DNA of 64,000 bases from Streptosporangium minutum (GTDB lineage Bacteria; Actinomycetota; Actinomycetes; Streptosporangiales; Streptosporangiaceae), in NCBI RefSeq assembly GCF_002149035.1, contig NZ_NGFP01000003.1, positions 301 to 64,300 of the forward strand, written 5' to 3'. Under the pieces are notes generated by a model, which saw only the letters and a list, made by a program, of their open reading frames with translations, was not told the origin of the DNA and ran no database searches. Numbering within the stretch: position 1 is the stretch's first letter; each line of letters starts with the position of its first letter. The translations under genes were made by a program, and so were the position numbers. Of the stretch, positions 35,424 to 59,001 are shown one piece after another.

Positions 35424-35433
35424 CCGCAGGTAC

Positions 35434-35474
35434 GGCGCGGGCCCCCGGAACGGGTCGTTCCGGGGGCCCGCGCC
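35434..35474. terminator. bidirectional terminator between P450 and aspS
   Basis: A perfect 19-bp inverted repeat (35434-35452 with 35456-35474) with a 3-base loop, placed exactly between two convergent genes. It should stop transcription from both sides. Confidence 0.85.
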
Positions 35475-35484
35475 GCGTTCGGAC

Positions 35485-54178: not shown

Positions 54179-54769
54179 CTAGAGCTCCCTCACCATCTCA
54201 ACAAAGTATGAATGCACGCCGACATCCCCGGTAAGTTCTGGATGGAAGGACGTGGCGAGCAGCGGTCCTTGGCGGACCGCGACGATCCTATCCCCAGCTT
54301 CGGCCCGAGCCAGCACTTCGACGTCGGAACCGATGGATTCCACCCACGGGGCGCGGATGAAAACCGCGCGCAGCGGGCCACGACCGGCGAAATCGACGTC
54401 GGCCTCGAAGGAGTCGACCTGGCGGCCGAAGGCGTTGCGGCGGACCACCATGTCGATGCCGCCGATCGTCTGCTGGCCGTCGACGCCGCCCTCGATCCGG
54501 TCGGCCAGCATGATCATGCCGGCGCAGGAGCCGTAGGCCGGCATGCCGTTCTTGATCCTCAGCCTGAGCGGTTCGAGCAGGTCGAAGGTCTCGGCGAGCT
54601 TCCACATCGTGGTGGACTCCCCGCCGGGGATGACCAGGGCGTCGACCGCCTCCAGCTCACCGGGCCGCCGTACGGCTACCGCCTTGGCGCCCGCCGTCTC
54701 CAGGGAGCGCGCGTGTTCGCGCACGTCTCCCTGCAGAGCGAACACACCGATCGTCGGGGCGATGGTCAC
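54179..54769 (-). CDS. pdxT: pyridoxal 5'-phosphate synthase glutaminase subunit
   Basis: Supplies ammonia to PdxS. About 196 residues of the class I glutamine amidotransferase fold: [11 protein letters not shown], the nucleophile Cys82 in [11 protein letters not shown], and the His-Glu pair in [13 protein letters not shown] 54769 follows AAGGA at six bases. The partner gene pdxS is 2 kb away, separated by marR and MFS genes. Confidence 0.95.
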
Positions 54770-54839
54770 CAGTGGTCCTTTCAAGGTGCTCGGAATGCCC
54801 TCTCAGCGTATGGCCACTGCGCAGGTCTCCCCAAACCGG

Positions 54840-56048
54840 TCAGGCGACCACGGGGGCGTCCTGGAAGGCGTGGTCGGCGTCGACGCGCTCCAGGCTCCGC
54901 ATGTGGTGGCGCCTGCCGTACAGGACGGCCATGCCCGCCAGGCAGCAGAGCGCGCCGAGGAGGTACGGCAGCGCGGGGGCGACGTCCTCCCCCAGCTTGG
55001 TGGCGATGTACGGCGCGAGGGCCCCGCCCATCCAGCGCACGAAGTTGTACCCGGCGGAGGCGACCGGCCGCGGCGCGTCGGAGACCTCCATGGCCGCCTC
55101 GGTGAACACGGTGTTGTTCAGGCCGATCGGGATGCCCGACAGGATGACGAAGACGACGATGCCGGCGTGGCCCGACAGCGCGATGCCGACCTGCAGGAGC
55201 GCCAGCACCGCCAGGGACAGGTGGAGCACCTTGACCGAGCCGAGCCGCCGTTGCAGGGCGGGGGCGGCGAAGACCGAGGCGAGCGCGACGCAGGCGCCCC
55301 ATCCGAAGAAGACCGCGCCGATGCCGTAGGGCGACATACCGAGGATGAAGGGGGTGAAGGCCAGGATCGTGAAGAAGGCGAAGTTGTAGAAGAACGCGGT
55401 GAAGGCGGTCGTCGACAGGCCGCCGTGGGCGAGGGCGCGGAGCGGGTCGCCCAGGCGGGTCTTCACGGCCGGCGTGGGGGTGGTCCTCAGCAGGGTGGCG
55501 ATGAGGACGAAGCCGACGGCCATGAGGGAGGCGGTGCCGAAGAAGGGCGCGCGCCAGTTCCAGTCGCCGAGAGCGGCGCCGACCAGCGGGCCCATGGAGA
55601 TGCCCAGGCCGAGGGCCGCCTCGTAGAGGATGATGGCGGACTCGGCGCCGCCGCTGGCCGCGCCGACGATGACGGCCAGGGCGGTGGCCACGAACAGGGC
55701 GTTGCCCAGGCCCCAGCCGGCCCGGAAGCCGATCAGCTCGCCGACGCTGCCGGAGGTTCCGGCCAGGGCAGCGAAGATCACGACCAGGGCCAGGCCGAGC
55801 AGCAGGGTGCGCTTGCCGCCGATCCGGCTGGAGACCCACCCGGTGACGAGCATGGCCACGGCGGTGACCAGGAAGTAGCTGGTGAACAGCAGGGAGACCT
55901 GGCTCGGGCCGGCGTGCAGCCCCTGGGCGATGGAGGGCAGGATCGGATCGACCAGGCCGATGCCCATGAAGGCGACGACCGCGGCGAACGCGGTGGCCCA
56001 GACGGACATCGGCTGGCGCAGGATGCTGCCGCCGCTCTGTGCTGACAT
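54840..56048 (-). CDS. MFS transporter, drug-efflux type
   Basis: About 402 residues with 12 hydrophobic segments. It begins QPMSVWATAFAAVVAFMGIGLVDPILPSIA, typical of 12-TM drug:H+ antiporters, and has a Gly-rich motif C-like GAALGLGISMGPLVGAALGD. Encoded downstream of a MarR regulator on the same strand (112 bp gap), so it is probably the regulated efflux pump. ATG 56048 follows AAGGAG. Substrate unknown. Confidence 0.92.
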   Translation of the reverse strand: MSAQSGGSILRQPMSVWATAFAAVVAFMGIGLVDPILPSIAQGLHAGPSQVSLLFTSYFLVTAVAMLVTGWVSSRIGGKRTLLLGLALVVIFAALAGTSGSVGELIGFRAGWGLGNALFVATALAVIVGAASGGAESAIILYEAALGLGISMGPLVGAALGDWNWRAPFFGTASLMAVGFVLIATLLRTTPTPAVKTRLGDPLRALAHGGLSTTAFTAFFYNFAFFTILAFTPFILGMSPYGIGAVFFGWGACVALASVFAAPALQRRLGSVKVLHLSLAVLALLQVGIALSGHAGIVVFVILSGIPIGLNNTVFTEAAMEVSDAPRPVASAGYNFVRWMGGALAPYIATKLGEDVAPALPYLLGALCCLAGMAVLYGRRHHMRSLERVDADHAFQDAPVVA

Positions 56049-56160
56049 GGGGGTGGACTCCTTCTCGGGCGGAGCCGGCACGGGGGCCGGGCCGTCCGAT
56101 CGTGCGGTTTTCTGCGGTGGTTCGCGGGACGCGGCCGGCGGCGGGAGCGGCGGCCGCGGG

Positions 56161-56577
56161 TCAGACGTCGCCGAGCTTGGCGAGGGCCGGGAGCGCGGCG
56201 CCGATCGCGGCGCGCTCCTCGGCTGTCAGCGCCTCCAGCTGCTCGGTCAGGTAGGCGACGCGGGCACGGCGGACGGCTACCAGGCGGGCGCGCCCCTCCT
56301 CGGTGAGCTCGACCGTGCGGACCCGGGCGTCGGACGGGTCGGTGCCGCGCGCCACCAGGCCGGGCTCCTCCAGCCGGTTGATCTGCACGGTCATGGTGGG
56401 CAGCTGGACGCCGTGCTCCTCGGCAAGCCCGGTCATCCGGCGGGGGCCGCTCTCCAGCGAGCCCAGCACGGCGTACTGCTGGCTGGTGATGGGCTGCCCG
56501 GCCGCCACGCGGCGCAGCAGCAGCACCAGGTGCCGCAGCTCCCTCGAAAGGCTCTGTGCCAGATCGTCCGTCGTCAT
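56161..56577 (-). CDS. MarR-family transcriptional regulator
   Basis: 138 residues of the winged-helix MarR fold: helix alpha1 ELRHLVLLLRRVAAG, SQQYAVLGSLESGP, RMTGLAEEHGVQLPTMTVQINRLEEPGLVARGTDPSDARVRTVELTEEG. ATG 56577 has no ribosome site; the operator and -10 region abut it, which suggests a leaderless mRNA. Likely represses itself and the MFS gene downstream. Confidence 0.95.
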   Translation of the reverse strand: MTTDDLAQSLSRELRHLVLLLRRVAAGQPITSQQYAVLGSLESGPRRMTGLAEEHGVQLPTMTVQINRLEEPGLVARGTDPSDARVRTVELTEEGRARLVAVRRARVAYLTEQLEALTAEERAAIGAALPALAKLGDV

Positions 56578-56579
56578 AG

Positions 56580-56606
56580 TTAGCCAGTCTAACTTAGTCT
56601 GACTAA
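56580..56606. promoter_or_regulatory. tandem MarR operator and promoter
   Basis: TTAGCCAGTCTAA (56580-56592) and the perfect palindrome TTAGTCTGACTAA (56594-56606) lie one base apart, directly before the marR ATG at 56577. On the minus strand TAGACT, about nine bases before the ATG, is a -10 candidate lying within the first site. Occupied sites would block the promoter. Confidence 0.7.
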
Positions 56607-56686
56607 CTATTATTCCGGACAGAGGGCGGTGCTCCGCCGGACGCCGCCCCGCAACGGTCAGGGACGCCCGTCACCGCTCCCGCCGC

Positions 56687-56716
56687 GATGCCGGCGACAG
56701 GGATGCCGGCGACAGG
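56687..56716. repeat. 15-bp tandem direct repeat
   Basis: GATGCCGGCGACAGG occurs twice in perfect tandem (56687-56701 and 56702-56716). The surrounding region 56611-56825 has no gene I can support; GGACGCCCGTCA also occurs twice (56662-56673 and 56766-56777). Confidence 0.8.
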
Positions 56717-56825
56717 GAACGTCGGGTGAGCCCGGGCGTGGGGGCCTCCCAGGACGATCGGGCACGGACGCCCGTCAGCCTCGCGGAGGATCATGGCGGC
56801 GGAGCGAACTCCGCCGGACACGAAA

Positions 56826-56856
56826 AAAGGCGACATCCTTCACGGATGTCGCCTTT
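56826..56856 (-). terminator. pdxS terminator
   Basis: A perfect 13-bp stem (56826-56838 with 56844-56856), 5-base loop and, on the minus strand, a run of six T. This is the best intrinsic terminator in the window. It blocks transcription from pdxS into the marR-MFS-pdxT side. Confidence 0.9.
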
Positions 56857-56867
56857 CCCGAAAATTC

Positions 56868-57782
56868 CTACCAGCCGCGCTCGGCCAGGCGGTGCGGGGC
56901 CGGGATGTCGTCGACGTTGATGCCGACCATGGCCTCGCCCAGACCGCGGGAGACCTTGGCGATGACGTCCGGGTCGTCGTAGAACGTGGTGGCCTTGACG
57001 ATCGCGGCGGCGCGCTGGGCCGGGTTGCCGGACTTGAAGATGCCCGACCCGACGAACACGCCCTCGGCGCCGAGCTGCATCATCATCGCGGCGTCGGCCG
57101 GGGTGGCGATGCCGCCGGCGGTGAAGAGCACGACCGGCAGCTTGCCGGTCTTGGCGACCTCGGCGACCAGCTCGTACGGCGCCTGCAGCTCCTTGGCCGC
57201 GACGAACAGCTCGTCCTCGGGCAGCGAGGACAGGCGCTTGAGCTCACCCCGGATCTTGCGCATGTGGGTGGTGGCGTTGGAGACGTCACCGGTGCCCGCC
57301 TCGCCCTTGGAGCGGATCATCGCCGCGCCCTCGGTGATGCGGCGCAGCGCCTCGCCCAGGTTGGTCGCACCGCAGACGAAGGGCACGGTGAACTGCCACT
57401 TGTCGATGTGGTTGGCGAAGTCGGCGGGGGTCAGCACCTCGGACTCGTCGACGTAGTCGACGCCGAGCGACTGGAGCACCTGGGCCTCGACGAAGTGACC
57501 GATGCGGGCCTTGGCCATGACCGGGATCGAGACGGCGGCGATGATGCCGTCGATCATGTCGGGGTCGCTCATCCGGGAGACGCCACCCTGGGCGCGGATG
57601 TCGGCGGGGACCCGCTCGAGCGCCATGACGGCGACGGCTCCGGCGTCCTCGGCGATCTTGGCCTGCTCGGCGTTGACGACGTCCATGATGACGCCGCCCT
57701 TGAGCATCTCTGCCATGCCGCGCTTCACCCGGGCGGTTCCGGTGACGGCGGTCTCGGTGACTTCGGGCGTGCTGCTGGACAC
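56868..57782 (-). CDS. pdxS: pyridoxal 5'-phosphate synthase lyase subunit
   Basis: Forms PLP from ribose 5-phosphate, glyceraldehyde 3-phosphate and ammonia in a dodecamer with PdxT. About 304 residues, a TIM barrel. [19 protein letters not shown], the signature [19 protein letters not shown], and [10 protein letters not shown] lysine/arginine sites are intact. GTG 57782 follows GAGG. Followed by a strong terminator; a long palindrome lies upstream. Confidence 0.96.
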
Positions 57783-57872
57783 GGTCTCTACCTCACGACG
57801 GCTGGTTGCGGAACATGGGCCGTCCGCGGGGACGGCCACCACGTCTCCATGGTAGGCGCTGATCCGCCTGTC

Positions 57873-57901
57873 CCCTTACACGACAAGTTGTCGTGTAAGG
57901 G
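57873..57901. promoter_or_regulatory. perfect 29-bp palindrome upstream of pdxS
   Basis: Half-site CCCTTACACGACAA (57873-57886) and its exact complement (57888-57901) flank a single central base. It is 90 bp before the pdxS start and 86 bp after the stop of the lipoprotein gene, and lacks a T-run. It could be an operator (a regulator of PLP synthesis is a guess) or a terminator. Confidence 0.65.
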
Positions 57902-57987
57902 CGATCTTCTTGGACATCATGTAGGGCGGCGGCGCGGCCGGGAGGGCCGGCGGGCCGGGACGCGGCCGGCGGCGCCGGGCCCGGAGG

Positions 57988-59001
57988 TCAGGGGATGACG
58001 GGCTTGCGGGCGGCCAGGACGACCCACACCTGCCCGGGGGCGAAGTTCATCGGCTCCCCCGCCTCGGTGGTGAAGACGGTGCCGTCCTCCTCCGACTCAC
58101 GTGACCACCTGGCCTTGAAGGCCTTGCCGTCGCGGAGCACGATCGCGCTGCCCTTGCCGGTGCTGTGCACCAGGGGCGTGTAGCTCTGGTTCTTGTCGTG
58201 GAACTCCGAGCGCTCGGTCTTGGTGTACTGCACGACGATCGTCGGCGCGCCGAGCTGGCCGCCCTCGGCCGCCATGTCCTTCGCGCCGTCCTGCCAGATC
58301 AGCCACTTGCCGGTGGCCTCCGACCAGCTGAAGGTGAAGCGGGCGGCCGGGTACTTCACGCTGAACGTCTTCTTGGGCACGCCGCCCTCGGGGGCGTCGC
58401 CGAAGGTGAATCCGACGTCCTTGGCCCTGGTCGCCTTGGGCGCCTGGGCCAGCAGCTCCCTGGTGTTGGCGAACAGGTTGTAGGGCGCGTAACGGCCCGG
58501 CTGGCGGAAGTAGGCGCCCGGCGCCCGGCTGTCGGAGACGTCGAACAGCGACGACTGCGCGATGATGGGAAGCATCTTGGTCTGCGCGCCCGAGTAGGCG
58601 AAGGCGGGCTTGCCGAACTGCGGCACGATGTGCAGGTCGGATATCCGGGCGCTGCGGACCGGGCCGATCTTGGGCGGGATCTTCGAGGAGAAGATCGCCA
58701 TCAGTCGCGTCAGGCCCGCCTCGACCTGCTCGACATAGACGATGTCGGCGCTTTTGAGGCCGAGCTGCGGCTTGCCGGCCGAGGTGTTCTCGATCTTCGC
58801 CGCGAGCACGGCCCTGCGGGCGGCCCCGGGGAGCCCGGTGAAGGGATGGGTCGGCTCGGGAGTCGGGGTCGCGTCCGCGGGCGGGGCGGTGGCCGCCTGC
58901 GGGTTCTTCCCCGGGGCCGGTTCATCGGAGGAACAGGCCGCGGCCGGAGCCAGGACGGCGACTCCCGCCAGCGTGACGGCGATCATCCGGGGCACCCGCA
59001 C
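57988..59001 (-). CDS. DUF3048 (YerB-like) lipoprotein
   Basis: 337 residues. A type II signal peptide with the lipid-modified Cys23 in LAPAAACSS is followed by a Pro/Ala/Thr linker (24-53), then the DUF3048 N-terminal domain (LAAKIENTSAGKPQLGLKSADIVYVEQVEAGLTRL) and the C-terminal part FTFSWSEATGKWLIWQDG. Family is of unknown function, cell-surface in Gram-positives. GTG 59001 has GAGGAG seven bases upstream. Confidence 0.92.
   Translation of the reverse strand: MRVPRMIAVTLAGVAVLAPAAACSSDEPAPGKNPQAATAPPADATPTPEPTHPFTGLPGAARRAVLAAKIENTSAGKPQLGLKSADIVYVEQVEAGLTRLMAIFSSKIPPKIGPVRSARISDLHIVPQFGKPAFAYSGAQTKMLPIIAQSSLFDVSDSRAPGAYFRQPGRYAPYNLFANTRELLAQAPKATRAKDVGFTFGDAPEGGVPKKTFSVKYPAARFTFSWSEATGKWLIWQDGAKDMAAEGGQLGAPTIVVQYTKTERSEFHDKNQSYTPLVHSTGKGSAIVLRDGKAFKARWSRESEEDGTVFTTEAGEPMNFAPGQVWVVLAARKPVIP

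Follow-up and report, generated by a model that had tools for sequence, protein, structure and literature searches.

The window, that is, the whole 64-kb stretch of DNA analyzed here, contains pdxS, the vitamin B6 gene encoding the PLP synthase lyase subunit, on the minus strand at 56871–57782 (NCBIfam PdxS, 527 bits). Its GTG start at 57782 was assigned from the conservation of the N-terminus and the GTGAGGTAG ribosome-binding region. A DUF3048 lipoprotein gene lies upstream of pdxS on the same strand (57988–59001), and these two minus-strand genes, the lipoprotein gene and then pdxS, flank a 29-bp palindrome at 57873–57901. The nearest genomes are those of Streptosporangium, and the PdxS protein of S. 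canum is identical. pdxT is found at 54179–54784, separated from pdxS by a MarR/MFS pair and by a hairpin 3' of pdxS (56826–56856); in several relatives, pdxS and pdxT are closer together than in the window (54179–57782). The MarR gene (56161–56577) is a regulator gene near the palindrome, where an earlier note on this DNA had seen none, and it is followed by the MFS transporter gene (54840–56081). A near-perfect 33-bp palindrome, TAGTTAGCCAGTCTAACTTAGTCTGACTAACTA, abuts the start of the MarR gene at 56577–56609 and is likely the operator of that gene itself.

The 29-bp palindrome, CCCTTACACGACAA-G-TTGTCGTGTAAGGG, is as exact as the earlier note had claimed: all 14 pairs are complementary around a 1-base spacer. 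From the base composition, perfect inverted repeats with an arm of at least 14 and a spacer of 0–1 are expected 0.0044 times per 64 kb and 0.66 times per genome. The palindrome is notable within the 64-kb window but unremarkable genome-wide, and its meaning therefore depends on its location. It is present as a single copy in the 9.58-Mb assembly, even with three mismatches allowed, and a genome-wide search with the palindrome returned this site only. DNA similar to the site was not found in the plasmid collection, the 25-bp inner palindrome pattern had zero copies in the viral contigs, and an Rfam family search of the site gave chance matches only. Longer perfect inverted repeats occur elsewhere in the window, with arms of 20 bp at 35433–35475 and 15 bp at 501–534; the former, whose loop has 3 bases, is the longest in the window.

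The location of the palindrome coincides with a conserved element. The pdxS upstream regions of Streptosporangiaceae align as one block, CA...tGtcCAA....GACA...tGG.gtGT..GGgg....CAgcgCCTACnATGGA, which is kept across Streptosporangium, Planomonospora, Planobispora, Microbispora, Nonomuraea and others. This conserved promoter/operator of 80 bp consists of box 1 (TGTCCAA), followed by GACA-N7-GTGT-N-AGGG and a TAcNAT -10 hexamer. In the window, the whole block spans 57844–57924 on the minus strand: box 1, which comparison of the pdxS upstream regions places in the upstream half of the operator, lies at 57910–57916, GACA at 57889–57892, the conserved -35-region block GTGTAAGGG at 57873–57881 and the -10 hexamer, TACCAT here, at 57849–57854, in conserved alignment columns. 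The palindrome overlies the core of this operator, extending over GACA, the TGG/TTG region and GTGTAAGGG. Relative to a predicted pdxS transcription start near 57842, it occupies about -30 to -60.

A sequence-only model of the block, R1, was built from 24 training sequences with this genome and S. canum left out, and it matches the window site with 70.1 bits (E 1e-18). In 16 of 16 Streptosporangium genomes, R1 has a single strong match, located at pdxS, with all other matches at or below 18.7 bits; the scan scores the best first-look candidates with a model that spans the whole promoter, so that it could overlook sites that are spaced differently. The second match in this genome (C514:31333, 18.7 bits) falls in what reads as coding sequence and was discarded.

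What is conserved in this block is not its symmetry. In 18 aligned sequences, GACA, GTGT, a central G and two of the flanking G's at the end are invariant. Variation is seen in the outer part of the left arm (CTTAC) and in the inner T's of the right arm (inner TTGTC). At homologous columns, 14/14 positions pair here and 13/14 in S. canum, compared to 3–8/14 in the 16 others (5/14 at the S. saharense or G006 site), where chance would give about 4. In a broader set of 21 sequences, the share of paired cells is 56%, which does not exceed the level in shuffles. Perfect or near-perfect symmetry is limited to this genome and its closest relative, S. canum; since pairing in the relatives is near chance, symmetry is not the conserved property. 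The earlier note had proposed an operator for PLP synthesis, and both the alignments and R1 agree with it as to place, which is that of a conserved pdxS regulatory site. They do not bear out the perfect palindrome, or its half-site CCCTTACACGACAA, as the recognized unit: the short groups named above are the only invariant ones. We conclude from these comparisons that the conserved control site is the finding, and that the perfect symmetry is probably incidental. A small ORF running through the palindrome, ATGATGTCC...GTGTAA, was considered and rejected, given that it lies upstream of the -10 and that in several relatives stop codons close the frame early.

The comparison with S. canum suggests how the symmetry may have come about. 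From S. canum to this genome there are two differences in 29 bp: a change from G to A at arm position 8, by which the arm becomes complete, and a change from G to C in the spacer. Copying the S. canum right arm back through the spacer yields the sequence of this genome exactly. Template switching between short inverted repeats is described as leaving a signature of homogenized arms and an inverted spacer (PMC8604942; for such quasipalindrome mutations, see also PMC7202029), and relative to the near relative both changes are seen here: the arms are identical, and the spacer is inverted between the sister species. The case differs from described template-switch mutations in being read from two species and their relatives by sequence alone. 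The direction of change was read by comparison with relatives on a tree built from pdxS and the lipoprotein gene, in which the closest outgroup to the S. canum pair (G004) has 3/14 pairs. The perfect symmetry looks like a local mutation product of template switching. Its presence in two species may go back to a single evolutionary event, and selection may have favored the symmetry.

Several features of the block point to transcriptional activation. TAcNAT rates as a good -10 hexamer, no TTGACA is present 17–19 nt upstream of it, and a standard sigma-70 promoter scan at pdxS found nothing because the -35 is poor. A good -10 lacking TTGACA at that distance makes the promoter look activator-dependent. 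GACA...GTGTnAGGG, which follows box 1, overlaps the -35 region, and a transcriptional activator centered near -42 would most likely bind the element and recruit RNA polymerase to pdxS.

To consider which protein this might be, we compared the site to that of PdxR, a MocR-family protein that activates pdxST in Corynebacterium glutamicum and others (PMC5320631). MocR motifs comprise two or more boxes, direct and inverted, most of which contain TGG or TGT (PMC5320631; PMC4494728), and the PdxR operator at C. glutamicum pdxST reads AAAGTGGW(-/T)CTA (quoted in PMC4494728). The site described here resembles that operator in lying within the promoter region in front of pdxS, in its activator-like position, in its TGG/TGT boxes and in the possibility of direct plus inverted boxes. 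It differs in that AAAGTGG is absent, no pdxR gene adjoins pdxS, strong sites seem limited to pdxS and the regulator is putative. The TGT of GTGT is invariant in the 18 aligned sequences; most relatives have a TGG where this genome has TGT. Within the operator, repeats spaced by 31 and by 22 bp score high (P 0.067 over all spacings), which is only suggestive of MocR-type boxes placed at helical turns. Beyond the family, 19 of 68 pdxS promoters of other actinobacteria have an [AT][CT]TGGC box that precedes the -10 by 29–30 nt (0.1 in shuffles), close to the hand-counted distance of 31 nt for the TGG of Streptosporangium. The box at 29–30 nt upstream of the pdxS -10 reads TTGGC or CTGGC in Micromonosporaceae, Nocardiaceae and a Saccharothrix (pdxS loci L016–L078), and it is possibly a shared pdxS activator site.

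A search for MocR regulators, which the earlier note had suggested, yielded seven MocR genes in this genome, two of which pass the NCBIfam PdxR cut-off, and linked none of them to the site. The gene for a cognate MocR regulator usually, if not obligatorily, shares the site through divergent or autoregulated transcription, and no match to the pdxS motif was found at any of the seven. C240, the best conserved of the PdxR-like genes, passes the cut-off and has an orthologue in 16/16 Streptosporangium; upstream of it lies a conserved three-box operator, AAGTGGA/TCCACTT/CCACTTT, unlike the pdxS site. This operator (L141:1890–2040) is kept in 16 Streptosporangium genomes, and C240 is divergent from a gene that resembles, by eye, a pyridoxamine-oxidase-like gene. 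Two further candidates were set aside: C296 is patchy in the genus, and the MocR-like gene C387 adjoins genes that resemble, by eye, inositol catabolism genes. On the motif comparison, a MocR/PdxR activator is our best guess for the bound protein.

A serious rival is a non-MocR regulator that reads the conserved block through ACA-N8-TGT half-sites at about -42. The ACA and TGT groups hardly vary and mirror each other about -42, none of the MocR genes carries the motif, and the PdxR-like C240 appears to recognize a different sequence. However, only three base pairs per side are shared and the next pairs are not, and TGG boxes like those of MocR motifs stand at almost this position in pdxS promoters of other actinobacteria; we regard such a regulator as possible, if rather doubtful. 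It is unlikely that the palindrome itself serves as the operator, with a homodimeric regulator of the two species binding the 14-bp inverted repeat and repressing or activating pdxS. Although the palindrome is near-perfect in both sister species, overlaps the promoter and is unique in the genome, the symmetry is missing from relatives that share the promoter and have an almost identical PdxS, there is no second copy in the genome, and the conserved bases are asymmetric about the palindrome center. The operator of a homodimer would keep its symmetry at orthologous promoters or in other copies, and neither is observed. The MarR gene was rejected as the cognate regulator, given that its own palindrome (56577–56609) differs from the 29-bp palindrome and that the gene is also near pdxS in species without the latter.

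Even less probable, in our judgment, is a role as a hairpin terminator or 3'-end stabilizer for the transcript of the DUF3048 lipoprotein gene, the stop codon of which lies 87 nt upstream of the palindrome. As in intrinsic terminators, a strong stem, evident from the RNA fold, stands between two same-strand genes, downstream of the lipoprotein gene. In contrast to such terminators, the site has no T-run on the transcribed minus strand of pdxS and the lipoprotein gene, in agreement with the earlier note, and it is not conserved: relatives have no comparable hairpin at this place. The palindrome also sits on conserved promoter bases. The plus-strand tail CGATCTTCTT passes a loose terminator scan, and no gene transcribed from the plus strand was seen there.

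Taken together, we consider it fairly probable that the palindrome is a lineage-specific version of a conserved pdxS element that binds an activator, likeliest of the MocR/GntR type, and that its symmetry arose by template switching. The activator would most likely be a PdxR-type regulator acting when PLP is short, and perfect symmetry would be unnecessary to it. The symmetry would have arisen in the lineage common to S. canum and been perfected in this genome, the simplest route being a template switch between two inverted arms that did not yet match perfectly; this would leave identical arms and an inverted spacer. PdxR-type proteins reportedly favor direct repeats when free of PLP and inverted repeats when PLP is bound (PMC5320631). 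Because of that preference, the conversion of a compound operator with little symmetry into a perfect inverted repeat could have changed the logic of pdxS control in this species pair, with a PLP-bound regulator able to hold the promoter; of the ideas raised here, we give this one the least credence.

The analysis defines a conserved pdxS control element in Streptosporangiaceae, possibly related to the TGG box before pdxS in several other actinobacterial families. It illustrates how mutation can leave a conspicuous perfect palindrome in a promoter as a by-product rather than a recognition site. The element also provides a defined bait with which to seek the protein that regulates de novo PLP synthesis in these antibiotic producers.
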